Origin: an uncultured Alistipes sp.
GTDB taxonomy: Bacteria; Bacteroidota; Bacteroidia; Bacteroidales; Rikenellaceae
NCBI GenBank assembly: GCA_944323075.1
Contig: CALURC010000001.1
Location: 1 to 64,000 of the forward strand
Reading direction: 5' to 3'
DNA length: 64,000 nt
Of the stretch, positions 1-62,892 are shown one piece after another; the stretch's first letter is position 1; each line of letters begins with the position of its first letter. The notes under the pieces are model-generated. The model had not been told where the DNA came from. It made no database searches and saw only the letters and a program-made list of their open reading frames with translations. A program made the translations under genes and the position numbers.

Positions 1-1148
1 GCCGCTATCATCTGGATCTGGTGATGATGACACACGGATGGAGACGGTTCCCCTCCGACAACCTGTTCCGTCCCGCACCATTCACCCCCAAGCACTTTAT
101 CGAACGGGGACAATATATCTCCGGACGGGTGAAGAGCATGTTGGGACGCGATGCCAAATCAGCAACTGTAACCGCCATATCGTTAAATCAGGAGGGTGTG
201 TCGGGATTTACCGAGACGGACCGTTCGGGACGGTACCTTTTGGAGGGGTTGGACTATAAGGATACGGTAGTCTTTCTGGTCTCGGCCCGGAGCAAGAGGA
301 ACAGGCCGGTACAGTCGGTCGAGGTAGACAAGCTCTACCCTAAACCTGCCTTCAAGAAACTTGCTCCCTATCCGGTGTATAATGAGACGGAGCAGGCGGC
401 GATGGACTCCTGTATGAGGGTTCCGATCGACCGCTATTCGGGTATGACCGGATACGAACTGAACGAGGTAACGGTGAAAGCCATTAATCCAAGGAAGCCG
501 AAAACCACCGGAGTCGACATCCTCTACGATACGACAAGACTCGCAGAGTTCAAACCTCTCCCGTTAGGTAGGTACATCGGATATTACATGCTCGAGGTAA
601 CAACTATTGCTGACTTAAAACCTCGACCAGGTGATGCACAAGCTCCCCTTAAACGAGGACTTTATATAAAAAACATGTTTCAAAGAGGTTATGCCCCTGC
701 TGGTGTTACTGTTAACGGTCGAGCTTGTTCTGATTTGAAAGTGTTGAATGCCTATACCGTTAAAGATGTTGAGTATATAAACCTTAATAGGACGACAATA
801 CCTTATCAAGTAGAAGTATATCTGAAGCCGGGAGTAGAACCAGGAGGAAGAGATTTTGCGATTTGTAAAATGTTGGGGTACTCGGATGGTATAGAGTTCT
901 ACTCGCCGATATACGATACTCCGGAACGAGCAGACAATCCCCACCCGGATCACAGAACAACCCTGTACTGGAATCCATACGTACAAACCGACACGACCGG
1001 TAAAGGTTTTGTAGAGTTCTATACCGATGATCGGGAAGATACCGAACTTGAGATCTCAATTGAAGGTGTTAGATATGATGGCATGCCAGTATTACATAGA
1101 ACAGAATTATTGAACATTTCCAAACAGTATAAAATTTACCCTAAATAA
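1..1148 (+). CDS. Plug-domain envelope protein with carboxypeptidase-regulatory-like domain, 3' part only
   Basis: The frame is already open at base 3 and reads into THGWRRF, so the gene starts left of the window and the GTG at 21 is not a real start. The visible part matches the C-terminal half of the 60156-62828 protein segment by segment: THGWRRF, a small regulatory-like beta domain (visible residues about 30-95, with DRSGRYLLEG), a plug-like region, then a TTLYWNP motif and a final IEGVRYDGMP segment. Family knowledge: these Bacteroidota proteins of about 900 residues combine an MG2-like N-terminus, a CarboxypepD_reg-like domain and a TonB-receptor-type plug without a full barrel; their role is not established. 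The C-terminal plug part (about residues 185-290) is less like the paralogue than the rest. Membership is clear, function is not. Confidence 0.75.
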   Translation, partial: RYHLDLVMMTHGWRRFPSDNLFRPAPFTPKHFIERGQYISGRVKSMLGRDAKSATVTAISLNQEGVSGFTETDRSGRYLLEGLDYKDTVVFLVSARSKRNRPVQSVEVDKLYPKPAFKKLAPYPVYNETEQAAMDSCMRVPIDRYSGMTGYELNEVTVKAINPRKPKTTGVDILYDTTRLAEFKPLPLGRYIGYYMLEVTTIADLKPRPGDAQAPLKRGLYIKNMFQRGYAPAGVTVNGRACSDLKVLNAYTVKDVEYINLNRTTIPYQVEVYLKPGVEPGGRDFAICKMLGYSDGIEFYSPIYDTPERADNPHPDHRTTLYWNPYVQTDTTGKGFVEFYTDDREDTELEISIEGVRYDGMPVLHRTELLNISKQYKIYPK

Positions 1149-1494
1149 AACACTCAACATAAAACTCTTTTACACTTTATTTTTTAATAAAAAACTCTAC
1201 TTTTTGATTACAACACTTAGACACCACAAGCAACTAATAAATATAGTTAAAACTAAAATTCACATTCCGTAAATTTATTGTTTCAAAATACGCCCTACAC
1301 CTCACACTTATAAACGCGCCACTATATTTAAAATTTATTTACCAAGAAACAAAATAAGCAAACTTTGTTTTATTTATAAATTATATTTAATTTTATTGCA
1401 CCAAAACACAGACCATACACCTGTATTTTAAATTACACAAAATAACACACTAATACCTCAAACTAATTTTGAATACCATAAATATATTAACAAT
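1149..1494. other. AT-rich intergenic region before the RiPP locus
   Basis: About 345 bases, strongly AT-rich, with no credible open reading frame. The only signal I see is a -7-type box near the right end (1464-1471), listed separately. It separates the plug-domain gene from the natural-product locus and may mark a boundary of foreign DNA. Confidence 0.6.
1464..1471 (+). promoter_or_regulatory. Candidate -7 box (TAATTTTG) for the RiPP operon
   Basis: Matches the Bacteroidota -7 consensus TAnnTTTG and lies 23 bases before the ATG at 1495. No good TTTG -33 element sits at the usual distance, so this is a weak call in very AT-rich DNA. Confidence 0.35.
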
Positions 1495-2187
1495 ATGAAT
1501 CCATTGTTAAATCGATTAATTCCACACTTACTCTTAAATTTCCATTTTGCACCCAATGAAGGCCTACTCAACGGGAAAATGGGAGGCGTTATTTTTTTTG
1601 GATATTACGCCCAATATACAGGAAAGACCTATTTCCGTGAATACGCAGAAGAATTATTGGATGACATATTTGATAGAGTACACGAAAATATACCGATTAA
1701 CTTTATCGATGGTCTCTGCGGTATTGGTTGGGGTATCGAATACTTAATCCAACATTCGCTTATGGACGGTGATGCAGACGAAGTCCTCGAAGACATCGAT
1801 AAAAAAATCATTGAACGTGATCCAATGTATATAAACGACCTATCTTTATATACTGGATTACAAGGTATACTAATGTACATTAATGCTCGTTTATCCCATT
1901 TTCGTACTAATAATTACCAACCTTTCCCAGATGAATATCTCCAGCGTGTAAATAAACATATAACCTCTATACTCGCATCTACCAATGTTGAAACATCCGC
2001 TGAATTCAATAACATAGCTAACTATTTCACCTCCAGAACCAACAACAAAACAGCCCCTGACTATTCATTAGAAATAACAAATGAATTCTATGGAACTCTC
2101 CCTTCTAATTTTCAAAATCTACACTCCTCTCCAATAGGTATTTATCAAGGTTTAACAGGTTTTGCATTCAAATCAATTCTATCATGA
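1495..2187 (+). CDS. LanC-like half protein lacking the zinc site (RiPP locus)
   Basis: A 230-residue protein resembling the N-terminal half of LanC-like (lanthionine synthetase C) proteins: GKMGGVIFFGYYAQYTG (about residues 28-44), NFIDGLCGIGWGIEYLI (about 68-84) and a SLYTGLQGIL segment, i.e. the GxxG helical repeats of the alpha-toroid fold. LanC proteins are usually about 400 residues; this one stops before the WCYG and CHG zinc-ligand motifs, which are absent. The end is not ragged and its stop overlaps the next ATG by 4 bases, so it looks like an evolved short form, not a frameshift product. Inference: a substrate-binding or scaffold partner of the full LanC-like enzyme two genes downstream. 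It starts an operon with the glycosyltransferase and the second LanC-like gene. Base composition is AT-rich like the whole locus. Confidence 0.75.
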   Translation: MNPLLNRLIPHLLLNFHFAPNEGLLNGKMGGVIFFGYYAQYTGKTYFREYAEELLDDIFDRVHENIPINFIDGLCGIGWGIEYLIQHSLMDGDADEVLEDIDKKIIERDPMYINDLSLYTGLQGILMYINARLSHFRTNNYQPFPDEYLQRVNKHITSILASTNVETSAEFNNIANYFTSRTNNKTAPDYSLEITNEFYGTLPSNFQNLHSSPIGIYQGLTGFAFKSILS

Positions 2188-3416
2188 AAAATATTTATAT
2201 TTTCAACATTACATCCCGAAGTATTCGCTATGGCATTGGAACTTATATCCAACATCTAATTCGATGTGCTCAGCATGCAGGATTTATGGTGCATTATATA
2301 TTAATCTCAGATGAAATCAAAGAACTTGAAATTATTAAGAAGAAGAGTATTTGGCAATTTAAAGTCCCCTTAAATCATTATGGGAACACTATGAATGCAC
2401 TGACTAAAACCGAACAGAGTCTCGCTTACTTATTAAAAGAGTATATTACAGATAACAAAAACAATATATTCCATTTCAACATTACAAGACAGGATGCATT
2501 AATCTCCAGAATAAAAAAACAATTCAATGGAAAATTTGTCATAACACTTCATTACACAGATTGGAGTTTCGAACTATTAGGAGACAAAAAAGAATTAAAA
2601 AGAATTCTACACACATCTCCCCAAAAAATGAATGCAAAAGAAAATTTCATTTACAAAAGCTTTATCAGAGATCAACAAGTTTTGAATGAATATGCAGATC
2701 ACATAATTGCCATAGCCAAACACTCTTATATGGATATCACCAAAATGTATAATGTCCCTCCAGATAAAGTCACTCTGATAAACAATGCCTTACCCGACAA
2801 ATACAAACATCTTTCAGAACAAGAGCGAAATGAATTAAGAACTCAATACAAAATATCCCCTACAGAGAATATCATAATTTTTGCAGGTAGGCTGGATGAG
2901 GTAAAAGGTATTGCCATATTAATCCGCGCTTTCCGGATATTATTGGAACGACACCCGAATTCACGGCTGATCATTGCTGGAGAAGGTGATTATCAAATTC
3001 TATTCCCTCTAGCTTTCAAAGATTGGAGCAAAGTAACATTTACTGGCTACATTAAGCAAAAAACATTATATGAACTTTATTCCATTGCAGACATAGGTGT
3101 AGTCCCCTCTCTTCACGAAGAATTCGGCTACGTTGCAATTGAAATGATGATGCATCGTCTTCCTGTTATTGTCAACGCCACAACAAGTCTAGCTGAAATT
3201 ATCGATCACGAAAAAAATGGGTTACACGTAATGCTGAAAAGAGGGAAACAAAATCTACTCAAATCTGCAAAAGAATTATCTTCAGCTTTAGTACGATTAT
3301 CTGAATCTCCACAACTAAGAATCCATTTAGGTAAAAATGCACGAAAAAAATATTTATCTCATTACGCAATTCGACTCTTTAATCAACGAATGAAATCACT
3401 ATACCAAACTTTATAA
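2184..3416 (+). CDS. GT4-type glycosyltransferase of a GG-Bacteroidales peptide (RiPP) system
   Basis: A 410-residue GT-B glycosyltransferase. The C-terminal half has the GT4 (group 1) pattern: FAGRLDEVKG (about residues 233-242), IIAGEGDY, a TGYI segment, and EEFGYVAIEM (about 312-321), the E-x7-E nucleotide-sugar-binding motif. The N-terminus (FNITSRSIRYGIGTYI) is, from memory, typical of a glycosyltransferase subfamily found next to GG-leader peptides in Bacteroidetes (TIGR04157-like); I cannot run that model here. It has no signal peptide or membrane segment, so it should act in the cytosol. It overlaps the upstream LanC-like gene by 4 bases and ends 3 bases before the next ATG, so the three are translationally coupled. 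Inference: it glycosylates the Thr/Ser/Cys-rich precursor peptide encoded at 4780-5061. Donor sugar unknown. Confidence 0.85.
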   Translation: MKNIYIFNITSRSIRYGIGTYIQHLIRCAQHAGFMVHYILISDEIKELEIIKKKSIWQFKVPLNHYGNTMNALTKTEQSLAYLLKEYITDNKNNIFHFNITRQDALISRIKKQFNGKFVITLHYTDWSFELLGDKKELKRILHTSPQKMNAKENFIYKSFIRDQQVLNEYADHIIAIAKHSYMDITKMYNVPPDKVTLINNALPDKYKHLSEQERNELRTQYKISPTENIIIFAGRLDEVKGIAILIRAFRILLERHPNSRLIIAGEGDYQILFPLAFKDWSKVTFTGYIKQKTLYELYSIADIGVVPSLHEEFGYVAIEMMMHRLPVIVNATTSLAEIIDHEKNGLHVMLKRGKQNLLKSAKELSSALVRLSESPQLRIHLGKNARKKYLSHYAIRLFNQRMKSLYQTL

Positions 3417-3419
3417 ATC

Positions 3420-4613
3420 ATGACCAATATTGATAAAGAAGCAAAAGTGCACGAGATTGCCCAAATATTAGCAACAAATTTAGAAACACCAGACATTAAG
3501 AACTCCGGCATTGGATTATACACCGGCAAGTTAGGTATTTTATTGTTTTTGGCCCATTATGCAAAATATTTTCCAACCAAACAAAACCATCAAATACTCA
3601 ATCAATGTCTGGAAGAGTGTTGCAACAACCTCTGTAACGACGTGATATATATGCATACTTTTTGTTCCGGATTGGCAGGAGCAATGAGTTCCCTTCGGCT
3701 CATGAACGAAAATTCACTGATTGATCTTGATATGTCAGAAATAGAAATCCAATACAAACCAATCATGCTGCAACAAATGAAAATATTCCTGCATAAAAAT
3801 CCTGGGAATTACGACTTTATGCACGGTGCATTAGGTATTGCATTACATTACAAAACAGACCCTGATTTCATAGAAACACTTGTTACATGGTTAAATGAGA
3901 ACGCAAATCGAGACAAAGGATTCACAAAATGGCCATCTATCCTAAACGACAAAGGTAAAATTGGATACAATATTGCTCTTTCTCATGGAATGTCAAGTAT
4001 CATTCTTGTTTTAAATCGTTTATACAAATCGGGCATCCAACAAAAACAAATCAAAAAACTTGTTTCTAGCACAATCGACTATATTTTATCACAAGAACTA
4101 AATCGTTCAATTTATGGATGTTGTTTTCCTTCGCAATCAACAGAAAATGGCGACGAAATTTATAAAAGTCGACTAGGTTGGTGTTACGGTGATCTAGGAA
4201 TAGCTGTTGCTTTATGGCAGGCAGGAAAAATTTTCAATCGTCAAGATTGGCAAGACAAAGCAGTAGACATCATGTTATTCACTACTCAACGCCGAGACCC
4301 AAAAGACAACAATATTATTGATGCAGGTCTGTGCCATGGAAGTTCAGGCGTAGCCATGATATTTAAATATATGTACAACGAAACCGAAGACGAGCGTTTT
4401 GCAGAAACAGCCCAATATTGGACTGATGTCACCCTTGATTTGGCATATCACCAAGACGGACTTGCTGGATATAAAAAATTCACTTTAGAAGTTACCCCAC
4501 CATGGAAAACATCATACACTCTCTTAGAAGGAATTTCAGGTATCGGATTAAACCTTTTATCCCTGTTAGATATAAAACAAAGAAGCAAATGGATGGAGCT
4601 TTTCTTACTATAA
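3420..4613 (+). CDS. LanC-like cyclase with complete zinc site (RiPP locus)
   Basis: A 397-residue full-length LanC-like protein. All key motifs of the family are visible: a His-Gly motif (H189, in LSHGM), WCYG with zinc ligand C255, and CHG with zinc ligands C305 and H306; spacing agrees with LanC enzymes such as NisC. GxxG toroid repeats begin at GIGLYTGKLGILLFL (about residues 23-37). Family role: LanC enzymes use Zn to activate Cys thiols for Michael addition to dehydro-residues, forming lanthionine rings. The odd point is that no LanB/LanM dehydratase lies nearby, so either a distant gene provides it or this enzyme does different thiol chemistry. Cytosolic, third gene of the operon, 166 bases before the precursor gene. 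Family call is firm; the reaction here is unproven. Confidence 0.88.
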   Translation: MTNIDKEAKVHEIAQILATNLETPDIKNSGIGLYTGKLGILLFLAHYAKYFPTKQNHQILNQCLEECCNNLCNDVIYMHTFCSGLAGAMSSLRLMNENSLIDLDMSEIEIQYKPIMLQQMKIFLHKNPGNYDFMHGALGIALHYKTDPDFIETLVTWLNENANRDKGFTKWPSILNDKGKIGYNIALSHGMSSIILVLNRLYKSGIQQKQIKKLVSSTIDYILSQELNRSIYGCCFPSQSTENGDEIYKSRLGWCYGDLGIAVALWQAGKIFNRQDWQDKAVDIMLFTTQRRDPKDNNIIDAGLCHGSSGVAMIFKYMYNETEDERFAETAQYWTDVTLDLAYHQDGLAGYKKFTLEVTPPWKTSYTLLEGISGIGLNLLSLLDIKQRSKWMELFLL

Positions 4614-4715
4614 ATCCACAAAATTTAATTCTCATAAACATACATGACAGTAGGTAGTTATTCATTAAACTAATGACTACATTTTATACATAAAACACAG
4701 ACTAAGCAATTATAC

Positions 4716-4726
4716 AAAAGGAGGTT
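4716..4726 (+). promoter_or_regulatory. Orphan perfect Shine-Dalgarno-like sequence (AAAAGGAGGTT)
   Basis: A long match to the anti-Shine-Dalgarno of 16S rRNA, which is unusual in Bacteroidota. No ATG, GTG or TTG follows within normal reach; the precursor-peptide ATG is 53 bases away. It may be chance, or a leftover of a lost small ORF. Confidence 0.3.
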
Positions 4727-4779
4727 CCCAAAAATCCATATAACAGAGTAGGGGTTAATCAATTTAGTTTTTATCAGTT

Positions 4780-5061
4780 ATGAAAAAATTAGTGCTAAAA
4801 AAAGAAATCGTAACACGTCTAACTCATGATGCAATGAATAGCTTAAGAGGTGGTGGTAATTACACATCAGACACGTACATAACAATGGACAACACATGCG
4901 CTTTAAACACATGCGAACTCACATGTGCAAATACTTGTGCAAATACTTGCAATGACACATGTAACGATACTTGTGCATATAGCTGCGGATGTCCCCAGAC
5001 GAACATTTTAGGTGATTGCCTAACCCAAGATTACGAAATATGTAGAACTAAAAGAATATAA
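4780..5061 (+). CDS. RiPP precursor peptide with GG leader and Thr-Cys repeat core
   Basis: A 93-residue peptide. The N-terminus reads MKKLVLKKEIVTRL then MNSLRGGG, which is the leader pattern of Bacteroidales GG-type natural-product precursors (charged helix, LxxxxMxxLxGG, cleavage expected after G25 or G26). The core holds 11 Cys (40, 45, 49, 53, 57, 61, 65, 69, 71, 80, 88). Eight [Thr/Ser]-Cys dipeptides start at T39, T44, T48, T52, T56, T60, T64 and S68, giving a four-residue period from T44 on. The DNA shows a matching 12-base tandem repeat, with 4924-4935 and 4936-4947 identical. It follows two LanC-like genes and a glycosyltransferase, so it is the obvious substrate. No peptidase-exporter is present in the window. 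A hairpin terminator follows at 5117-5148. The product class (lanthipeptide, glycopeptide or other thiol-modified peptide) is undetermined. Confidence 0.85.
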   Translation: MKKLVLKKEIVTRLTHDAMNSLRGGGNYTSDTYITMDNTCALNTCELTCANTCANTCNDTCNDTCAYSCGCPQTNILGDCLTQDYEICRTKRI

Positions 5062-5116
5062 ACCCTAAAAATATTTTGTGTACATAAAAATAGAATTCAA
5101 GAATGGATTTAATAAT

Positions 5117-5150
5117 AAAAACCGCATTCTATTTATAATGCGGTTTTTAT
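5117..5150 (+). terminator. Rho-independent terminator after the precursor peptide gene
   Basis: A perfect 12-base stem (5117-5128 with 5137-5148) around an 8-base loop; the right arm ends in a T run. The stem begins with an A run, so it could also work for the other strand. Confidence 0.85.
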
Positions 5151-5382: not shown

Positions 5383-6693
5383 ATGAAACTAAAAATCAAC
5401 AAACGCATAATCCTGGGAATATCGATTCCTCTATTGGTCATTTTTATTGTGGCAGGGCTAAACATTACCTATCGCTCCGGAACCATGCATGGAGAAAAAA
5501 ATGACAAAATTATGCCTTGGGAAAACCATATAAACCTAGAAGGAACTGACTACATCCGTTATTTTTACAATACGGTCAAAGGTGCCTATGCCAAATATCC
5601 CTGGGTAGTGCAAATCTCCTATATAATCGTACTTTTATGCATATTATTGGTTTTTATCGTGTCCATTATCATGGCATGGGATATATACGTACGAAAGAAA
5701 AACGCAAGAATGTTCAATGAAATCAAACAGAAATACTATGGAACTTTGAGTGAAATAGCAAAACAGGATAGAATATTGGCTCGCTCGGAAATATACTCTA
5801 TGATTATGCCGGACCGTATCACGGAATCGAGTTACACATACCGAATGAGATGGATCGAATTATTTATCCTATTACGAGCAGATACCGATCTGAAGGAGCC
5901 CTCAATCACCAATATTCGCAATACAATGGAAATACTCGGATTGAGTGAGTTCATGGAAAACAGATTGATTTACGGTAAAGACAAAGAGAAACTAAGGGTT
6001 ATCCAGGCCGCCAGATTACTGGATATGCAGCTATCGGACAGCGTCATGACCGGTATCGTAAACAATCGCGACATCAGATTACACAAAGCCGCTCGATTCT
6101 ATTATATGCTAATCAACAAGGATGACCCATACCTGTTTTTCGAAAATGACAAAATGAACGATCAATTCTCGGTGTGGGACAAACTGGAACTGCATCAACT
6201 GTTTGCCGATTGTCATGAAGCAGGTAAAAAACTACCTTCATTCATTCCCCTTATCCGTCAATTATCCAATCCGAAAATCGCTGCCTTTTTCATCAAAGAG
6301 ACTGCATATTGGGGCAACGATATCGAAGTCGGATATTTGGAAGAGTATTTCGATTCTCCAAATCAAAGTTTTAGAAGAGCTGCATTCGAAGGTATGGGAT
6401 TACGTCGATTCGCCCAAGCCGAAGAAAAAATGAAAGAGTGTTTTTTCAACCAATCGGAATCGTTGAAAAGGGTCATACTGGAGAGTCTTCTCGCTATTAA
6501 ATCAGGCAATTCGATTGACTTCATAAAGGAGGCTTTTTATACATCTGCCTCCAGATTCACCAAACGTACGGCTTTGTATTGTCTTTGGCATTACAACAAA
6601 CATGGACAAACGATATTTACGGAGATGAAGAAACTTGCATCTCCAGATGAACTTGTGCTGTTCGATCAGATTGACAAAACCAATATTCAATAA
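5383..6693 (+). CDS. Membrane protein with HEAT-like repeats, first gene of exopolysaccharide operon
   Basis: A 436-residue protein with an N-terminal membrane segment (about residues 7-27), a roughly 50-residue periplasmic-looking stretch and a second strong membrane helix (about 75-98), followed by a large cytosolic alpha-helical region. From about residue 290 the helices repeat in HEAT-like pairs (FRRAAFEGMGLRRF, LKRVILESLLAIKSG, FTKRTALYCLWHY). HEAT repeats bind proteins, so this is likely an inner-membrane scaffold or regulator for the synthase encoded next, 23 bases downstream. I recall no characterised homologue. Start: the ATG at 5383 follows a -7 box and precedes the hydrophobic helix. 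The specific role is inferred only from position. Confidence 0.7.
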   Translation: MKLKINKRIILGISIPLLVIFIVAGLNITYRSGTMHGEKNDKIMPWENHINLEGTDYIRYFYNTVKGAYAKYPWVVQISYIIVLLCILLVFIVSIIMAWDIYVRKKNARMFNEIKQKYYGTLSEIAKQDRILARSEIYSMIMPDRITESSYTYRMRWIELFILLRADTDLKEPSITNIRNTMEILGLSEFMENRLIYGKDKEKLRVIQAARLLDMQLSDSVMTGIVNNRDIRLHKAARFYYMLINKDDPYLFFENDKMNDQFSVWDKLELHQLFADCHEAGKKLPSFIPLIRQLSNPKIAAFFIKETAYWGNDIEVGYLEEYFDSPNQSFRRAAFEGMGLRRFAQAEEKMKECFFNQSESLKRVILESLLAIKSGNSIDFIKEAFYTSASRFTKRTALYCLWHYNKHGQTIFTEMKKLASPDELVLFDQIDKTNIQ

Positions 6694-6716
6694 TTTGTAA
6701 ACCCACTCCGACCTGT

Positions 6717-8144
6717 ATGAATGAATACTTTATAGAATTTTATGGATTTACCATATTCGCCTATTCCATCGCATTGATCATCTCGTACGTCATCCTGATG
6801 TGGTTGGCTGAGATATCTATCATACGGAGCAAAACCTCTTTCGTCGAATCGTACGCAAAGAAAGTTATCGACAAAAGCCCATATACACCCGGAGTATCTA
6901 TTGTCGCCCCTGCCTATAATGAAGAGCGGACTATTGTAGATAATGTCACTTCTCTTTTAGGACAAGACTATCCTAAATTCGAAGTGGTCATTGTAAACGA
7001 CGGAAGTAAAGATTCAACGTTAGAAAAGCTGATCGACAACTTTAAGCTGGTAGAGGTCCCGTACGATTATGTAGAACTAATCAAAACAAAACCCTTCAAA
7101 CGACTATTCAAATCCACCGATCCAAAATTTGAAAAGTTAATCGTAGTAGACAAAGTCAACGGAGGAACAAAAGCCGATGCTGTCAATGCCGGGTTAAATG
7201 TTGCCTCCTATCCCTATTTTGTCAATACGGATGTAGACTGCATCCTGACAAAAGATGCTATTTACCAGTGTATATTACCGGTCTTGGATAAGGACCATGT
7301 AATCGCTGTAAGCGGTGCTATGGCTATGTCCAACGGATGCAAAATGAGTAATGGACAAATTGAAGAAGCCTTTCCGCCTCATTCATTAGTCCCCCTTTTC
7401 CAGACACTTGAATACATGAGATCATTCCTCATCGGTAAAATGGGTTGGTCCGCCATCAACTCCATGCCCAATGTATCGGGAGGATACGGCCTGTTTAATC
7501 GGAAAATCGTTATTGCTGCCGGAGGATATAGTTCGGATTCCTTTGCAGAAGACATGGATATGTTGATTCGGATGGTAGGGTATTGCTGCGATTTTTCTCA
7601 AAAATATAAAGTTATACAGATCCCTCAAACCTGCTGCTGGACGGAAGGTCCGCCGAATATCAAAGTCCTCGCTCGTCAACGAATCAGGTGGGGAAGGGGA
7701 CTCATACAAACCTTCTCACAACACAAACGTTTTATATTCAATAAAAAATACAAACAGCTGGGACTTGTCACCTTACCCTATCTGCTGATCTTCGAGTTTA
7801 TCGCACCTGTGATCGAATTCATCGGAGTGGTGACGCTTATCTTCCTTGCCGTTACAGGAGCTGTCAACTGGAACACAGCTCTGGTTATTTTTCTCGCCAT
7901 CTATGCCTTCTGCATTACACTATCCGTTGTGGTCATTTTCTACGATTATACGCTTGGCGGATCGTACAAAAAAATCAAGGACTATCTATGGATATTGTTG
8001 GCAGCCATGTTAGAACCATTTATATATCATCCAATGGTCGTATTCTTCTCTTTGAAAGGTTATTGGAACTATTTTATCAATAAGAAAGCCGTATGGGGAG
8101 AGATGACCCGCAAAGGCTTTTCACCTGAAACTAAAAATGCCTGA
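6717..8144 (+). CDS. Processive GT2 polysaccharide synthase (PgaC/cellulose-synthase-like)
   Basis: A 475-residue inner-membrane glycosyltransferase family 2 enzyme. Motifs in order: VNDGS (N94-D95-G96), DxD in NTDVDC (D172, D174), a GGYGLF acceptor-site segment (255-260), ED (E278-D279, catalytic base region) and QRIRW (321-325), the QxxRW motif that marks processive synthases such as PgaC, hyaluronan and cellulose synthases. One membrane helix precedes the catalytic domain (about 10-32) and about four follow (about 345-450), as expected for coupled synthesis and transport of a beta-linked polymer. It sits between a HEAT-repeat membrane protein and a TPR/YaiO outer-membrane protein, and a DUF4838 protein follows, i.e. 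the parts of a synthase-dependent exopolysaccharide machine. The sugar (GlcNAc or other) cannot be read from sequence. No PilZ domain or Bcs subunit is seen. Confidence 0.9.
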   Translation: MNEYFIEFYGFTIFAYSIALIISYVILMWLAEISIIRSKTSFVESYAKKVIDKSPYTPGVSIVAPAYNEERTIVDNVTSLLGQDYPKFEVVIVNDGSKDSTLEKLIDNFKLVEVPYDYVELIKTKPFKRLFKSTDPKFEKLIVVDKVNGGTKADAVNAGLNVASYPYFVNTDVDCILTKDAIYQCILPVLDKDHVIAVSGAMAMSNGCKMSNGQIEEAFPPHSLVPLFQTLEYMRSFLIGKMGWSAINSMPNVSGGYGLFNRKIVIAAGGYSSDSFAEDMDMLIRMVGYCCDFSQKYKVIQIPQTCCWTEGPPNIKVLARQRIRWGRGLIQTFSQHKRFIFNKKYKQLGLVTLPYLLIFEFIAPVIEFIGVVTLIFLAVTGAVNWNTALVIFLAIYAFCITLSVVVIFYDYTLGGSYKKIKDYLWILLAAMLEPFIYHPMVVFFSLKGYWNYFINKKAVWGEMTRKGFSPETKNA

Positions 8145-8146
8145 TT

Positions 8147-11131
8147 ATGAAAAAAAAGACAAATATGCCTTTCCGCAAAATGTGGACACGGAACAAATAT
8201 ATTGCGTGGTCGCTATTGTTGACCTGTATGTTCTGTGCCAACACCGGCTATGGAATTGGCAAAAAAGAAAAAGTTGAATATTACGAAAAGTCCGTTAAGG
8301 ATCTTTTTGTAGATGACAAATGGGAAGAGGGTAGAGCCATCCTAATGGAAGGATTGAAGCTATATCCCGAATCTTCTGAACTGAACGAACTGGCCGGAAG
8401 CTACTACTACCAGTTAAAAGATTATGACAACGCCAGATATTTCCTCGTCAGAGCCGTCAAAGAGACACCCGACAACGTAACAGCCAAAAATCTCTTGATA
8501 AATGTTGAAGAAGAGACCGGCAACTATTCCAGTGCGATCTGTTACGTCAACGAACTTTTGGAAATCACCCCTTATTGGCAAGGTCTATGGAAGAAAAAAA
8601 TAGCTCTGTACAGACTTCAGGGCAACGATATCGAAGCCGATCGGTTATTGAAACGATTGTTTCAAATATACCCCAATGACACGGCTGTCAGACAAGATTA
8701 TATCTCCCGCCTCGAAGAGAACTATTTGAAAGAGCGGAAAAAGGGTGATAAAGTTGCCGCAATACAAGCACTCCGCGAATTATTGGAAAAAGATAAATCG
8801 CAAGAAGTGTACTACCTGGATCTGGCAAATTTGTTTTTACAGCAAGGTACCCCAGAGTCTGCATTAGAAACCGTTTCCGAAGGGGTTATTTCGTTTCCCA
8901 GTTCGATCTCCTTGATCTCTAAAAAAGCCGAAATATTGTCCGGACTGCGCCGCTATCCGGAATCATTGGCTTTCCTGGAAGACCGAATGAATTTTTGTAA
9001 AAACACAGATTCTCTACAACCCCTATACAATTCGGTCCTGGAAGAGTATGCCAGATCACAACAGGAATCCGACCCCTACCGGATATATGGCAAACTGTAT
9101 ACCCTCAGAAGAGATAAAGATGTACTGAATTACCTGATCGACGAATCAATAAGAAGTGCACGGGAAGAAGACATGAAAAAATATATCGATGAAGCACGGA
9201 AAACCTATGGCGATACCCCTGAATTAAGATATAAAGAGTATGAATTCTATAAACGACAGGGAAGTCCGAAGGCTATTGTTTTGCTCGATGAATTGTATAA
9301 ACAATATCCTAATAATTATGATATCGCTGAAGATGTATGCGCCTTGAAATATACACAAGCCGAAACATTGCGTGAAGACGGTGCGTACAAAGAGGCAGCC
9401 AGACTATTTGATTTTGTCGCGGGAACAACCCAAGATATTGATTTAAGAACATCTGCATTACAAAAACTATATTCGGTCTATATATATTCAAAGCAATACG
9501 ACGCAGCCGAAAAGGTTCTTGAATCATTGCGGGAACATATCGATCCGGAAGAATACGTAGGACGGGAAGCTGAAATAATGAACAAAAAAGGGGAGGTAGA
9601 ATCTGCACTCGAATACCTGTACGATTATTTCAAAAATACGAACTCAGAATCGAATACGACTTATATACCTGACCTGTATGAAGAATATGCTCTACCTCAC
9701 ATCAAAAAACTCATTGAATCGGGCGATTTAAAACGAGCCTGCAGCGAAAGCAACAGACTTATCGAGATATGTCCGTACTCTGAGCAGGGCATACAGTATG
9801 CTATTTCATGTTTCTCTCTGGCTGGCGACAAAGAAGAGTCTGAAAAATATATAGAATACGGACTGCAGACCTTTCCTGGAAATACGTCTTTTATAGAGAA
9901 AAAAGCATCTCTATTATACGCCGACAAAAAGTACGATGAAGCCATCGCTTTGTTACTTCCCGTTGTCGACTCCTTACCTGGAAACAGCTCCATCATCGCG
10001 TCATTATCTGCCAGTGGCGAAGCCAGTGCATACGAACTCATAAAATCGAAACAATATGATAAGGCCATGGCAATTATCGACACGACTCTCGCATTCGACA
10101 ACAACAACCAAAGGCTGAACTACACAAAAGGTATGATATACGAAAAATTAGGTCAATATGATTCCGCATATGTATATCAAGTACTTTACAAACCGGATGC
10201 AAGCGACGCGAGAGAATTCAAACGCCATCTGGCAAACTTGGAACGCCGCAATATGAGAAACGAACTCTCCATGGGCGTGATCTTCGGTGGATATATGAAC
10301 GGCAGATCGATTGCTCCTGTAATGGATATTTCTTATGCATACACCCATAAGAAAAACCGATTTTTCTTTAGTCCGGCATACACGGCACGGGAAGACGTGA
10401 CAGATGACGATGGTATAAATGTTCTGGGAGGGCAGGCCATAAGACTTACAACAGGATGGGAACATCGATTCTCGCCAAGATGGTCTTCTTCCATATCTGT
10501 AGGGTGGGCAAATGATTTTTTCCCAAAGCTTTCTGCCAATGCAGCCGTTGCATACGACTTCAACAAAGATTGGAGTCTGAGTCTAAACATAGGATACAGA
10601 AGTTTAAATAGAGATCTGATAGATTACAGCTGGGTGGAAACGACCGATGCAGAATCGGGTGTAACCGAAGGCGTATGGAAACCCGAAAAATATGTCCGTA
10701 CCAAAGAGTCTCTGCTCAATGCCGGTCTGACTGCAACCAAATCTTTTGAATATCTGGTCTTAACCTTAAAAGGCGATTTTTTCATCATGGGAGGCAGCCC
10801 ATATTTCAATAGTTCTGCACAACTTAAATATATACCCGGTAGCGACGGAACGTCGTTTGTCCGAGGAACGTTTGGGATTGGCTCAGCCCCCGAGCTGGAC
10901 GTAATAGACTGTGCAATGCCCGGAAGCTTCAGCAAAATTAATGTTTTTGCCGGATTAGGAGGAGGATACATGATCGGCAAACACATGTTGATAGGCCTGG
11001 ATTTTTCATACAGCACGCTGTATACCCAAAGCAGCAAACGTATAGGGACCTACGACGATTATATCAACGACATCCAGACAAAATACAAAAACATGTTTAA
11101 TGTCTACACGTATATCAGCTTCTATTTTTAA
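8147..11131 (+). CDS. TPR protein with C-terminal YaiO-type outer-membrane beta-barrel
   Basis: A 994-residue exported protein with a signal sequence (hydrophobic segment about residues 19-36), many TPR-like helical repeats (about 45-690, e.g. ELNELAGSYYYQLKDYDNA and RLNYTKGMIYEKLGQYDSA), and a C-terminal beta-barrel (about 700-994) of YaiO type that ends in an aromatic residue (SFYF), as outer-membrane proteins do. This is the architecture of polysaccharide exporters such as PgaA, AlgK/AlgE and BcsC: periplasmic TPR superhelix plus barrel. It begins 2 bases after the GT2 synthase stop, so the two are surely co-expressed. Inference: it guides the polymer across the periplasm and outer membrane. 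The YaiO barrel assignment is from pattern memory; the barrel as such is clear. Confidence 0.85.
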   Translation: MKKKTNMPFRKMWTRNKYIAWSLLLTCMFCANTGYGIGKKEKVEYYEKSVKDLFVDDKWEEGRAILMEGLKLYPESSELNELAGSYYYQLKDYDNARYFLVRAVKETPDNVTAKNLLINVEEETGNYSSAICYVNELLEITPYWQGLWKKKIALYRLQGNDIEADRLLKRLFQIYPNDTAVRQDYISRLEENYLKERKKGDKVAAIQALRELLEKDKSQEVYYLDLANLFLQQGTPESALETVSEGVISFPSSISLISKKAEILSGLRRYPESLAFLEDRMNFCKNTDSLQPLYNSVLEEYARSQQESDPYRIYGKLYTLRRDKDVLNYLIDESIRSAREEDMKKYIDEARKTYGDTPELRYKEYEFYKRQGSPKAIVLLDELYKQYPNNYDIAEDVCALKYTQAETLREDGAYKEAARLFDFVAGTTQDIDLRTSALQKLYSVYIYSKQYDAAEKVLESLREHIDPEEYVGREAEIMNKKGEVESALEYLYDYFKNTNSESNTTYIPDLYEEYALPHIKKLIESGDLKRACSESNRLIEICPYSEQGIQYAISCFSLAGDKEESEKYIEYGLQTFPGNTSFIEKKASLLYADKKYDEAIALLLPVVDSLPGNSSIIASLSASGEASAYELIKSKQYDKAMAIIDTTLAFDNNNQRLNYTKGMIYEKLGQYDSAYVYQVLYKPDASDAREFKRHLANLERRNMRNELSMGVIFGGYMNGRSIAPVMDISYAYTHKKNRFFFSPAYTAREDVTDDDGINVLGGQAIRLTTGWEHRFSPRWSSSISVGWANDFFPKLSANAAVAYDFNKDWSLSLNIGYRSLNRDLIDYSWVETTDAESGVTEGVWKPEKYVRTKESLLNAGLTATKSFEYLVLTLKGDFFIMGGSPYFNSSAQLKYIPGSDGTSFVRGTFGIGSAPELDVIDCAMPGSFSKINVFAGLGGGYMIGKHMLIGLDFSYSTLYTQSSKRIGTYDDYINDIQTKYKNMFNVYTYISFYF

Positions 11132-17771: not shown

Positions 17772-18950
17772 TTACAACGCCAGTCTGTAGATGTTATATA
17801 TATCTTCAACCTGAAGGTGCTGGAAATTACCCAAACCATTCCGTCCATCGCGTTCAGCCAAACACCTTTCCGCCATCAGACGCAAATGTTCTTCACCGAT
17901 TCCCACGTCACTCAACCGAGTCGGCAATCCCATTTTTTTGTACCAACCCTCGAGCCGGTCGATCATTTCGAAAACAATCCGTTCCTTGTCATCGAATGCC
18001 AGCGACACGTCGAATACCCGTACAGCAAACTGCACAAACTTATCAATATCCGTTTTATAGACATACTTCATCCACGCCGGGAAAACAATCGACAATCCGG
18101 CACCGTGTGCAATGTCGTACTGAGCACTCAATTCATGCTCAATATCGTGGCTGGCCCAATCGCCGATCCGCCCCATATTGAGCAGATTGTTGTGAGCAAC
18201 GGTTCCGGTCCACATAATCTCAGCCCGAATGTCGTAATCGGTCGGGTGGGCCAAAGCCATCGGACCGTAATAAAGAATCGTACGAATCGATCCTTCGATC
18301 AACCGGTCTGTAAAATCAACATGTTTCACCGTCGTGAAATAACGCTCCATCAGGTGAGCCACAATGTCCGAACAACCGTTGGCAATCTGGTTAGCCGGCA
18401 TCGAAAAAGTCACTTCTGGATTCATGAAAGCAAATTTCGGAGTCAGACATTCACTTCCGATATACCGTTTGTAATTCCCCTCCTCATTGGTAATTACAGA
18501 ACTGTCGGACGACTCGGAACCGGCCGCCGGAATCGTCAACACGACCCCCACGGGAAGCGCACCTTCAATCGGCTTGTCATCATAAAGATAGTATTCCCAA
18601 ATATCGTCCTTACAACATACACCGGCTGCAATCGCTTTCGACGAATCGATCGTACTGCCACCTCCGACAGCCAGAATAAAATCTAAATCATTCTCCTTGC
18701 ACAACTCTATCCCTTTACGCACGAGAGACAAACGCGGATTGGGTTGCACACCACCCAATTCAACAAAGAAAAGACCTTCGGCCTGTAACGAAGCCACCAC
18801 GCGATCATATAATCCGTTACGTTTGATCGATCCTCCGCCATAATGCAGTAAAATCCGCTTTCCGTATCGAGCAACCTCTTTCCCCACACTATTCTCTACA
18901 CCCTTACCAAAAATAATCCGGGCCGGGTTATAATATTCAAAGTTTATCAT
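17772..18950 (-). CDS. Iron-containing alcohol dehydrogenase (YqhD/butanol dehydrogenase type)
   Basis: A 392-residue group III (iron-type) alcohol dehydrogenase. It starts NFEYYNPARIIFGKG, typical for the YqhD/BDH subgroup, has GGGS (AVGGGSTIDSSKAI, about residues 96-109) for dinucleotide binding, and the metal-ligand region with HNNLLNMGRIGDWASHDIEH (about 252-271) and AHGAGLSIVFPAW (about 280-292). Length is as expected. YqhD-type enzymes reduce aldehydes to alcohols, preferably with NADPH. It acts in the cytosol. Its neighbour is a glycyl radical enzyme of the eliminase type; such enzymes often make aldehydes, so joint action (for example reducing an aldehyde product) is plausible, but the genes are separated by a terminator. 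Confidence 0.93.
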   Translation of the reverse strand: MINFEYYNPARIIFGKGVENSVGKEVARYGKRILLHYGGGSIKRNGLYDRVVASLQAEGLFFVELGGVQPNPRLSLVRKGIELCKENDLDFILAVGGGSTIDSSKAIAAGVCCKDDIWEYYLYDDKPIEGALPVGVVLTIPAAGSESSDSSVITNEEGNYKRYIGSECLTPKFAFMNPEVTFSMPANQIANGCSDIVAHLMERYFTTVKHVDFTDRLIEGSIRTILYYGPMALAHPTDYDIRAEIMWTGTVAHNNLLNMGRIGDWASHDIEHELSAQYDIAHGAGLSIVFPAWMKYVYKTDIDKFVQFAVRVFDVSLAFDDKERIVFEMIDRLEGWYKKMGLPTRLSDVGIGEEHLRLMAERCLAERDGRNGLGNFQHLQVEDIYNIYRLAL

Positions 18951-20908: not shown

Positions 20909-22072
20909 ATGGCAAAGAGAGATTACTACGAAGTACTCGGTGTGGATAAAAACGCCAGTGCCGATGAGATCAAAAAGGCTTATCGGAAGGCTGCACTGAA
21001 GTACCACCCAGACAAAAATCCGGGAAACAAAGAGGCTGAAGAGAAATTCAAAGAGGCAGCCGAAGCATACGACGTATTGAGCAATCCGGACAAAAAAGCC
21101 CGGTACGATCAGTTCGGACACGAAGGAATGAATGCCGGAGGTTTCGGAGGCAGCGGCGGCGGTTTCAGCGGCGGTTTCTCTATGGAGGATATTTTCAGCA
21201 ATTTCGGAGATATCTTCGGAGGTCATTTCGGTGGTGGTTTCAGTGGCTTCGGAGGCGGCGGAAGCGGACGAGCCCGGGTCAACCGAGGTTCGGATCTGAG
21301 GATCAAAGTCAAGTTGACGCTGAAAGAGGTAGTCAATGGCACGACTAAGAAGTTAAAGATCAACAAGCAAATCGCATGTGACCAATGCGGTGGAACAGGA
21401 GCCAAAGACAAAAATGCCTATACGACTTGCTCGACCTGCCATGGATCAGGATATGTTACCCAGGTGGTCAACACATTCTTCGGCAGAACCCAGACCACAC
21501 AGCCTTGTCCAACCTGTCACGGCGAAGGAAAGGTTATTACATCTCCATGCCCAAAGTGTAATGGAGAAGGTATTGTACGCGGTGAAGAGGTGATCGAAAT
21601 CCGGATTCCGGCCGGAGTAGGCGAGGGCATGCAACTCACCGTCAGCGGAAAAGGAAATGCAGCCCGTCATGGAGGCATCAACGGCGACCTGCTCGTATTG
21701 ATCGAAGAGGAACCCGACAAAAACCTGATCCGGGACGGGAACGATTTGATATACAACCTGAATATTACGATTCCACAAGCCGTATTAGGTGCTTCGGTGG
21801 AAATACCGACCGTAGATGCGAAAGCGAAGATCAAGATCGAACCCGGAACACAAGCCGGAAAGGTGTTACGCCTGCGGGGTAAGGGAATCCCCGAAGTAAA
21901 CGGACACGGTCGCGGAGATCTGCTGGTTGTAGTTAACATCCACGTACCGACATCGGTGAACTCAACGGAAAAACAGTTGCTCGAACAACTGGCCGGAAAC
22001 GAACATTTCAAACAGGCCGAACAGAACCGTGACGCCAATATTTTCGACCGGATGCGCAGCTTTTTCCGCTAA
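20909..22072 (+). CDS. dnaJ: Chaperone DnaJ
   Basis: A 387-residue type I DnaJ with all domains: J domain (about residues 1-70, HPD in KYHPDKNPG), Gly/Phe-rich linker (about 75-130), four CxxCxGxG zinc repeats ([32 protein letters not shown], about 155-230) and the C-terminal substrate-binding domains. It delivers clients to DnaK and stimulates its ATPase. It is translated just behind grpE and 22 bases ahead of mutL, on one operon. Confidence 0.98.
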
Positions 22073-36655: not shown

Positions 36656-38281
<1,626 letters not shown>

Positions 38282-62828: not shown

Positions 62829-62860
62829 AAGCAGCACTCTTATTTGATTTACATTTATTA

Positions 62861-62892
62861 CAAATTTAATTTTTTTATTACATAAAAACAAA
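62861..62892 (-). promoter_or_regulatory. Promoter of the plug-domain gene
   Basis: Minus strand TTTG (62889-62892), 20-base spacer, TAAATTTG (62861-62868), 33 bases before the ATG at 62828. It decides the start codon of that gene. Confidence 0.75.

Follow-up and report, generated by a model that had tools for sequence, protein, structure and literature searches.

Ribosomal peptides that carry sugars, such as the glycocins and the glycosylated lanthipeptides NAI-112 and cacaoidin, combine a peptide with a glycosyltransferase, which in the SunS type of glycocins is a GT2 S-glycosyltransferase. The locus considered here, found in a 64,000-nucleotide stretch of DNA from an uncultured Alistipes sp. 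(the window), differs from these in having a TIGR04157 GT4 with a LanC-like partner; the enzyme coupled to this partner, which we call half-LanC, matches Glycos_transf_1/GT4 models and not the SunS-type GT2.

For class I lanthipeptides of Bacteroidota, PMC7268733 describes leaders of the form LxLxKx5L that end in GG, C39, and a split LanB as in pinensin. These clusters share split LanB, LanC, GG leader and C39 exporter with the present system, whereas here the genes are divided between two sites, there is an additional half-LanC/GT4 pair and the LanC of the LanB operon is zinc-less. Bacteroidales areas combining radical SAM and LanC, in part with GlyS (BGC3-5), are described in PMC10352776, which notes LanCs near CAZymes, likens zinc-less LanC-likes to endoglucanases and reports LanB as completely absent from 1,136 Bacteroidales genomes screened. 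BGC3-5 resemble our locus in having GG-type precursors and LanC-likes that lack the zinc motif, and BGC3 has a glycosyltransferase as well; the window locus differs in its zinc-type LanC, and no radical SAM was found in the window. Lastly, a lanthipeptide with a repeated bridging motif has been predicted in Tannerella forsythia (PMC11251773), the species of one related gene set below; the two peptides may be the same, and the main text of that paper contains no word beginning with 'glycosyl'.

Results

The genes of the locus and their signals, all on the plus strand, are as follows.

3..1148, +, C-terminal part of a repeated surface-type gene, running off the window start
1495..2187, +, half-LanC, a 230-aa LanC-like protein without zinc ligands (PF05147, 33.8 bits, cut-off 23.2; alignment, model and fold search)
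2184..3416, +, GT4 glycosyltransferase, TIGR04157 family (407.6 bits, curated cut-off 400)
3420..4613, +, LanC cyclase (PF05147, 154.5 bits; H189, C255, C305, H306)
4727..4801, +, precursor start region, before and into the precursor, with ATAACAGAGTAGGG and the leader start; 80% identical over 75 bp to its counterpart on contig C14
4740-4753, +, ATAACAGAGTAGGG, inside the 75-bp region common to both precursor genes
4780..5061, +, precursor, 93 aa, GG leader of class I lanthipeptide type (NF038153, 27.5 bits, cut-off 22)
5117..5148, +, terminator-like hairpin ending in a T-run, 3' of the precursor, recognised by eye

The zinc-less half-length LanC-like protein, the GT4 and the LanC with its four residues are thus where the first-pass annotation had placed them, and the reading frames of these three genes and the precursor are all open. 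Its description of the genes as overlapping holds for half-LanC and GT4, which share 4 bases, but not for GT4 and LanC, which are 3 bases apart. The LanC has profile relatives in 8byk (MadC) and 2g02 (NisC); its H189, C255, C305 and H306 are invariant in a six-sequence alignment that includes it, and C255, C305 and H306 form the zinc triad. In half-LanC, by contrast with NisC and MadC, the zinc-binding part is missing, the alignment showing it to lack the sites of the C, C and H ligands of LanC cyclases. The GT4 carries EEFGYVAIE from residue 312, which fits an EX7E motif. A scan of viral contigs found no relatives of the window LanC, and the gene at 3..1148 matches MG2 and carboxypeptidase-regulatory-like models, both below the Pfam cut-offs.

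The precursor, rightly recognised from its GG leader and Thr-Cys repeats, has a core of 68 residues with 11 Cys, 13 Thr and 2 Ser, arranged in part as eight [S/T]C pairs, the last seven of which are spaced by 4 residues. The TIGR04149 leader was not among its matches to E 0.1; the lanthipeptide precursor of a related Tannerellaceae locus (L174) matches both NF038153 and TIGR04149. We rejected AACAGAGTAGGG as a genome-wide motif: with at most one mismatch it occurs at the two precursor sites only, and with at most two mismatches a genome scan gave 14 sites, the reversed control 12. The promoter scan stayed at chance level (25 found, 21.3 expected), and the hairpin is not on the terminator scan list, its loop of 10 exceeding the scan's loop limit of 8.

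The window begins at base 1 of contig C1, inside the repeated gene. Because the first 130 bp of the left ends of C1 and C14, another contig of the same genome, are 99% identical, a single repeated gene is where the two contigs break off, and the 'LanB-less' appearance of the locus is an artefact of a window that starts at such a contig end. LanB is indeed missing from the window, the single PF04738 match of the genome (466.6 bits) lying on C14 and none on C1. The absence of radical SAM and C39 peptidase genes from the window was likewise borne out, within the reach of small purpose-built models applied to ORFs of at least 60 aa: radical SAM gave no model match and no ORF above 250 aa with CxxxCxxC, and the sole C39-model match, at 36665-38281, looks by sequence like an ABC ATPase. 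The search for LanB and C39 elsewhere in the genome, proposed in the first-pass annotation, found both on C14.

C14 1598-3781, split LanB, large part (PF04738)
C14 3824-4702, split LanB, small C-terminal subunit (PF14028, 227 bits)

The C14 operon has a precursor-like gene and the split LanB, its large part being followed by the PF14028 subunit, the C39-ABC exporter, HlyD and an OEP/TolC-type protein. Its LanC lacks the zinc triad that the window LanC has, and by sequence the two gene sets are complementary. The C14 precursor scores 20.2 bits against NF038153, below the cut-off of 22, and in the assembly its core is out of frame with the leader ATG; given this frame split, the operon may be decaying, or the sequence may be in error. 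If the contigs are taken at face value, LanB lies about 120 kb from the window locus. We dropped the idea that C14 is a circle, as its prfA- and pyrF-like genes are ones that a chromosome would be expected to carry (the names prfA, pyrF, adh, grpE and dnaJ, and HlyD of L232 below, were read from the sequences).

Half-LanC, GT4, precursor, LanC and LanB occur together in T. forsythia (L232) and in a Tannerellaceae MAG (L174), and LanB adjoins LanC and precursor in both and in a Prevotellaceae locus (L178); at L119 (genome G251) LanB is on the same contig and no zinc-type LanC was seen in 19 kb. Among 22 genomes picked by hand rather than at random, 13 of the 14 with a zinc-type LanC (one broken) and no LanB within 10 kb have LanB elsewhere, in several cases next to another LanC; in G392, where a zinc-type LanC is present, LanB gave no match, and LanB was not found in 6 of the 8 genomes chosen for zinc-less LanC/glycosyltransferase loci, the completeness of which is not established.

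The sister genome G004 has only a scar of the half-LanC/LanC pair near the same syntenic genes as the window, so that the locus can evidently be lost. In G005, the closest sister, neither gene set is present at the corresponding site. The genes pyrF and adh are close together in G005 and far apart in G004, and for that reason G004 does not settle the join of C1 and C14. The HEAT gene at 5383-6693, sought as a means of tracing both contigs, matched nothing in the 8 remaining genomes of the genus.

The early suspicion about half-LanC and the glycosyltransferase repaid attention: the pairing recurs, mostly without LanB nearby. Among 141 related proteins, a glycosyltransferase lies within 2 kb of, or is fused to, 81 of 100 zinc-less LanC-likes, as against 3 of 41 zinc-type LanCs (background: within 2 kb of 15 of 211 ORFs), and it lies on the same strand within 30 bp in 60 of 100 against 0 of 41; zinc-less rows are over-sampled here, the search queries having been half-LanC-like. 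Counted per locus, the figures are 67 of 79 and 3 of 35. Of the 19 zinc-less proteins with no glycosyltransferase within 2 kb, 11 lie well inside their contig or stretch. A C39 model match lies within 10 kb of 60 of 100 zinc-less and 17 of 41 zinc-type proteins, and GG-leader precursors adjoin zinc-less LanC-likes at many loci. Neither LanB nor radical SAM models matched within 10 kb at 52 of the 79 zinc-less loci, many of which are on short contigs; the glycosyltransferase, LanB, C39 and radical SAM models were all derived from proteins of these loci, and other families may have escaped them. The input comprised the window, L005, L041-L049, L112-L132, L135-L154 and L155-L227, with L040 and L050 (remnants) and L133 and L134 (repeat, flank) kept out. 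Row sets of 65 and 93 gave 144 rows, fragments below 180 aa (10) being skipped and identical copies (11) dropped; leaving out two window rows and the broken LanC L042 gave the 141. Zinc classes were assigned by regular expression, two rows being moved from zinc-less to zinc-type by alignment.

Short forms of at most 260 aa make up 33 of the 86 unfused zinc-less relatives, 26 of them with a glycosyltransferase nearby, and we have dropped the notion that half-LanC is a lone truncated gene. Fusion partners of zinc-less LanC-likes include GT2, GT4, GT8, GT6+GT11, radical SAM and methyltransferase domains. The LanC-like part exceeds the Pfam cut-off in L047, L127, L165, L182 and L207 only; it falls below in L119, L163 and L166, and in L115, L170, L180, L187 and L214 it is recognised by the purpose-built model alone, with no Pfam match (L172, L173, L177 and L181 stood outside this comparison). 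A modelled fusion had pTM 0.60 and no fixed domain arrangement.

Discussion

From the contig-end artefact, the complementary halves and the one-place sets of T. forsythia and Tannerellaceae, we therefore consider it likely that the window locus makes up half of a class I lanthipeptide system of the Bacteroidota split-LanB type, divided between two chromosomal places, with LanB acting in trans. What the sequence shows is which genes are present, the families they belong to, the catalytic residues they carry, how the two sets complement each other and what stands beside their relatives. The genome has a LanB, and the locus a zinc-triad LanC and a class I leader; LanB does not stand beside LanC and precursor, C1 being broken at the repeat. 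The earlier proposal that modification enzymes act in trans agrees with the gene content, as LanB, its subunit, C39, HlyD and OEP are on C14 and a zinc-type LanC is not; the trans action itself we infer, as we do each enzymatic step below. A LanB in a co-regulated cluster had been named as what would make this a standard class I locus, and this applies in part: LanB is in the genome, and as to co-regulation the analysis covered the 75-bp start region common to both precursor genes.

We propose that the leader of the precursor (4780-5061) is recognised and that the split LanB pair of C14 dehydrates its Thr and Ser in trans. The zinc-type window LanC would then add Cys thiols to form (methyl)lanthionines, half-LanC, as an adaptor, might present the peptide to the coupled GT4, which would add a sugar, and the C14 C39 transporter would cut at GG and export the product through HlyD and the OEP/TolC-type protein. 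The GT4 could instead act on a lipid or glycan rather than on the peptide.

The alternative that fares best, though we think it unlikely, is that there are two separate lanthipeptide systems and that the window set is a non-working remnant which has lost its own LanB and exporter. The scar in G004, the lack of either set in G005 and the rarity of LanB in the family (5 of 200 genomes) would fit such a history, but all four window genes are open, the LanC has kept its catalytic residues, and the LanB operon is itself without a zinc-type LanC.

For half-LanC only, and compatibly with the other readings, one might follow PMC10352776 and regard zinc-less LanC-likes as carbohydrate-active and unrelated to peptide modification. 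Their adjoining glycosyltransferases and a weak fold match to GH105 hydrolases agree with this, yet the fold search ranks LanCL1, MadC and LanCL2 highest, GG-leader precursors and C39 exporters stand beside many, and fusions to radical SAM and methyltransferase domains also occur; we consider the idea improbable.

Equally doubtful, and here unsupported, is the new RiPP type first suspected, in which LanC and GT4 would modify undehydrated Thr-Cys repeats by other thiol or sugar chemistry independently of LanB: C1 without LanB, G392, the six chosen genomes of unestablished completeness and the 52 zinc-less loci, many on short contigs, speak for it, but the locus combines a zinc-type LanC with a class I leader in a genome that has LanB, 13 of the 14 genomes picked for such a LanC possess LanB, and related gene sets adjoin it.

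Returning to the split system, half-LanC would be, as we see it, a retired cyclase that has found new use as a partner presenting substrates to tailoring enzymes. More tentatively, zinc-less LanC-likes in general may form a new class of RiPP adaptors that bind GG-leader peptides and pass them on to paired or fused GT2, GT4, GT7C-type, GT8, GT6+GT11, radical SAM or methyltransferase enzymes; they would then mark a large Bacteroidota family of exported glycopeptides, a large part of which has neither LanB nor radical SAM close by, and the Alistipes locus would be its lanthipeptide-hybrid version. We found no published description of the LanC/glycosyltransferase pairing as such in the one open-access library searched. 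The zinc-less LanC-likes that Bacteroidota of the gut and mouth possess, hitherto put down as carbohydrate enzymes, become candidate partners of glycosyltransferases on secreted peptides, and if this is true, these bacteria would commonly make glycosylated ribosomal peptides, a class that has rarely been noticed.

An apparently LanB-free lanthipeptide locus is thus corrected to a split one. LanB was found in the present genome and also in T. forsythia ATCC 43037, B. fragilis Q1F2 and further genomes of the order for which the 1,136-genome survey (PMC10352776) reported none.

Genes of the window locus

The four genes picked out by the first-pass annotation are all confirmed, by family models and coordinates, as open reading frames in the window:

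1495-2187: half-LanC, a zinc-less LanC-like protein of 230 residues; 4-base overlap with the next gene
2184-3416: GT4 glycosyltransferase (GT) of the TIGR04157 family
3420-4613: full LanC, 3 bases after the GT4 gene
4780-5061: precursor of 93 residues, after LanC

Residues H189, C255, C305 and H306 of this LanC do not vary across six aligned sequences, its own included, and its best solved relatives by profile search are 8byk (MadC) and NisC. The precursor scores 27.5 bits (cut-off 22) with the NCBIfam class I lanthipeptide leader model and has eight [S/T]C pairs within its core. The window locus is most likely a class I lanthipeptide system in a novel variant form. Next to it (5383-11131), genes for a HEAT-like protein (no match in the other eight genomes of the genus), a PgaC-like GT2 below the model cut-off and a TPR protein with a YaiO-like end are consecutive and resemble an exopolysaccharide unit.

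A complementary LanB operon on a second contig

The earlier description of the locus as LanB-less holds for the window, from which dehydratase and exporter are absent, but fails for the genome; LanB lies on a second contig, C14, and was not seen because the window (bases 1-64000 of contig C1) starts at a broken contig end in an assembly of 19 contigs. The C14 operon runs precursor-like gene, LanB, LanB C-terminal subunit (LanBs), C39 ABC exporter, HlyD, GT2, DUF5722 protein, LanC-like protein and outer-membrane efflux protein. The two sides are complementary: C14 has the dehydratase and exporter, of which the window has none, whereas the zinc triad is present in the window LanC and absent from that of C14. 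Both precursors match one leader family (C14 at 20.2 bits, under the cut-off), and their genes share, at 80% identity, a 75-bp region that takes in the upstream element and the start of the leader. The start codon and core of the C14 precursor (C14 1224-1519) stand in different frames in the assembly; a sequence error could account for this, as could decay. We infer dehydration in trans, glycosylation of the peptide and an adaptor role for the half-LanC.

C1 and C14 both break within a repeated, MG2-like gene family, and the first 130 bp of C1 recur at the start of C14 with 99% identity; taken whole, the protein ends of the two repeat copies are ~49% identical. On a single contig of the closest sister genome, G005 (95% on pyrF), the order is prfA-pyrF-repeat gene-repeat gene-...-adh-...-dnaJ, with none of these peptide genes in between. 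The right end of C14 reads prfA-pyrF-start of a repeat gene, and the window contains adh (17772-18950) and dnaJ (20909-22072). Taken together, these gene orders indicate that the right end of C14 most likely joins the left end of C1, which would place LanB ~120 kb upstream of the window locus. The proposed join leaves unexplained that the repeat gene adjoining LanB is an 86% relative of the gene after pyrF in G005. Because of this relative and the breaks within the repeat, the arrangement is provisional, and LanB may be nearer than ~120 kb. Copies of this multi-copy MG2/carboxypeptidase-regulatory-like family, which is in tandem in G005, flank peptide genes and break the assembly:

Window: 3-1148 and 60156-62891
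C14: 3-1154
Other locus stretches: L052, 2694-5726; L039, 12165-12489; L104, 5332-10769

Relatives and the distribution of LanB

In several relatives, comparable gene sets stand beside LanB in one place:

L232, T. forsythia ATCC 43037: half-LanC, GT4, precursor, zinc-type LanC, two further genes, LanB, LanBs, C39, HlyD-like, half-LanC, GT7C-type GT; a C39 fragment and a radical SAM model match beyond the first half-LanC
L174, Tannerellaceae MI.5_5: half-LanC, GT4, precursor, LanC, then LanB and LanBs as two pieces each
L178, Prevotellaceae Gx485_bin110: LanC, precursor, LanB, LanBs, half-LanC, GT4
L119, genome G251: GT2-half-LanC fusion, GT4, precursor, LanB, LanBs, C39; the stretch shows no zinc-type LanC
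L233, B. fragilis Q1F2: two half-LanC/GT pairs and a GT2-half-LanC-GT7C triple fusion, with LanB, LanBs and zinc-type LanC nearby

A second T. forsythia ATCC 43037 contig (L164) also has half-LanC, GT4 and zinc-type LanC; its exact 60-mers in common with L232 look like the result of a partial duplication of the cluster. LanB adjoins one of the two only. A lanthipeptide has been predicted in T. forsythia (PMC11251773). Our finding of LanB in several Bacteroidales differs from PMC10352776, which reports LanB to be completely absent from the Bacteroidales screened and describes the BGC3-5 LanCs as having no zinc motif.

Within the family LanB is rare (5 of 200 genomes, the window genome included; four above the cut-off). 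Alistipes sp. dk3624 (NZ_CP045651.1), of the same genus, has no LanB match and carries, beside a repeat gene, a scar (L040:9848-10341) of half-LanC and the last 46 residues of LanC, a copy of the window locus that has decayed. G005 has neither a LanC nor a LanB match. In the sister G002, one 10-kb contig combines the C14-type operon, HlyD through TolC, with a methyltransferase-half-LanC fusion and a TIGR04157-like GT that scores 362 bits where the cut-off is 400; LanB was not found in this genome, which is 79% complete.

Zinc-less LanC-like proteins and glycosyltransferases

LanC-like proteins were collected by a search of 393 genomes of the order, from a genome collection (73 loci) and by a LanC search, leaving 141 after drops, 100 zinc-less and 41 zinc-type.

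Neighbours of LanC-like proteins (zinc-less; zinc-type)
GT fused or within 2 kb: 81/100; 3/41 (Fisher 1e-16, relatedness ignored)
The same, order-search and LanC-search loci alone: 25/30; 0/29
The same, genome-collection loci: 56/70; 3/12
GT on the same strand within 30 bp: 60/100; 0/41
LanB within 10 kb: 13/100; 25/41
C39: 60/100; 17/41 (p 0.06)
Radical SAM: 22/100; 0/41

The background frequency of a GT within 2 kb is 15 of 211 ORFs. Zinc-less LanC-like proteins are thus linked to GTs, and fusions occur: in 14 of the 100 the ORF also matches another model (GT4 follows the LanC part in five and precedes it in two, six have GT2 and one has radical SAM), and Pfam adds GT8 (two), a methyltransferase (one) and GT6 with GT11 (one), the last being a 763-residue protein of GT6, GT11 and zinc-less LanC-like domains (L182:8357-10648). 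The 19 zinc-less exceptions with no nearby GT include the C14 LanC, and eight of them have the end of a contig or stretch no more than 2 kb away.

Among 14 genomes chosen for a zinc-type LanC with no LanB within 10 kb (the LanC broken in one, G153), 13 have LanB elsewhere, G392 having none in the genome, vs two of eight genomes chosen for zinc-less loci. Zinc-type LanC thus accompanies LanB somewhere in the genome; for the zinc-less LanC/GT module, LanB does not appear to be required. This module is the part that could prove a new kind. In one locus, L048 in G078, three LanC-like genes, all zinc-less, accompany two GTs of the GT7C type and two GG-leader precursors whose starts are nearly identical; in the 18-kb stretch covered, no LanB, C39 or radical SAM model match lies within 10 kb of the LanC-likes. 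Elsewhere, a 15-kb contig of G247 (L142, C186) carries four zinc-type LanC genes.

The predicted model of a LanC-GT4 fusion (pTM 0.60) does not fix the domain arrangement. That of the half-LanC (pLDDT 74.3, pTM 0.76) has LanCL1, MadC and LanCL2 as best PDB matches (probability 0.99-1.0, but TM 0.42-0.44 and E >0.01), as would be expected of part of a LanC toroid.
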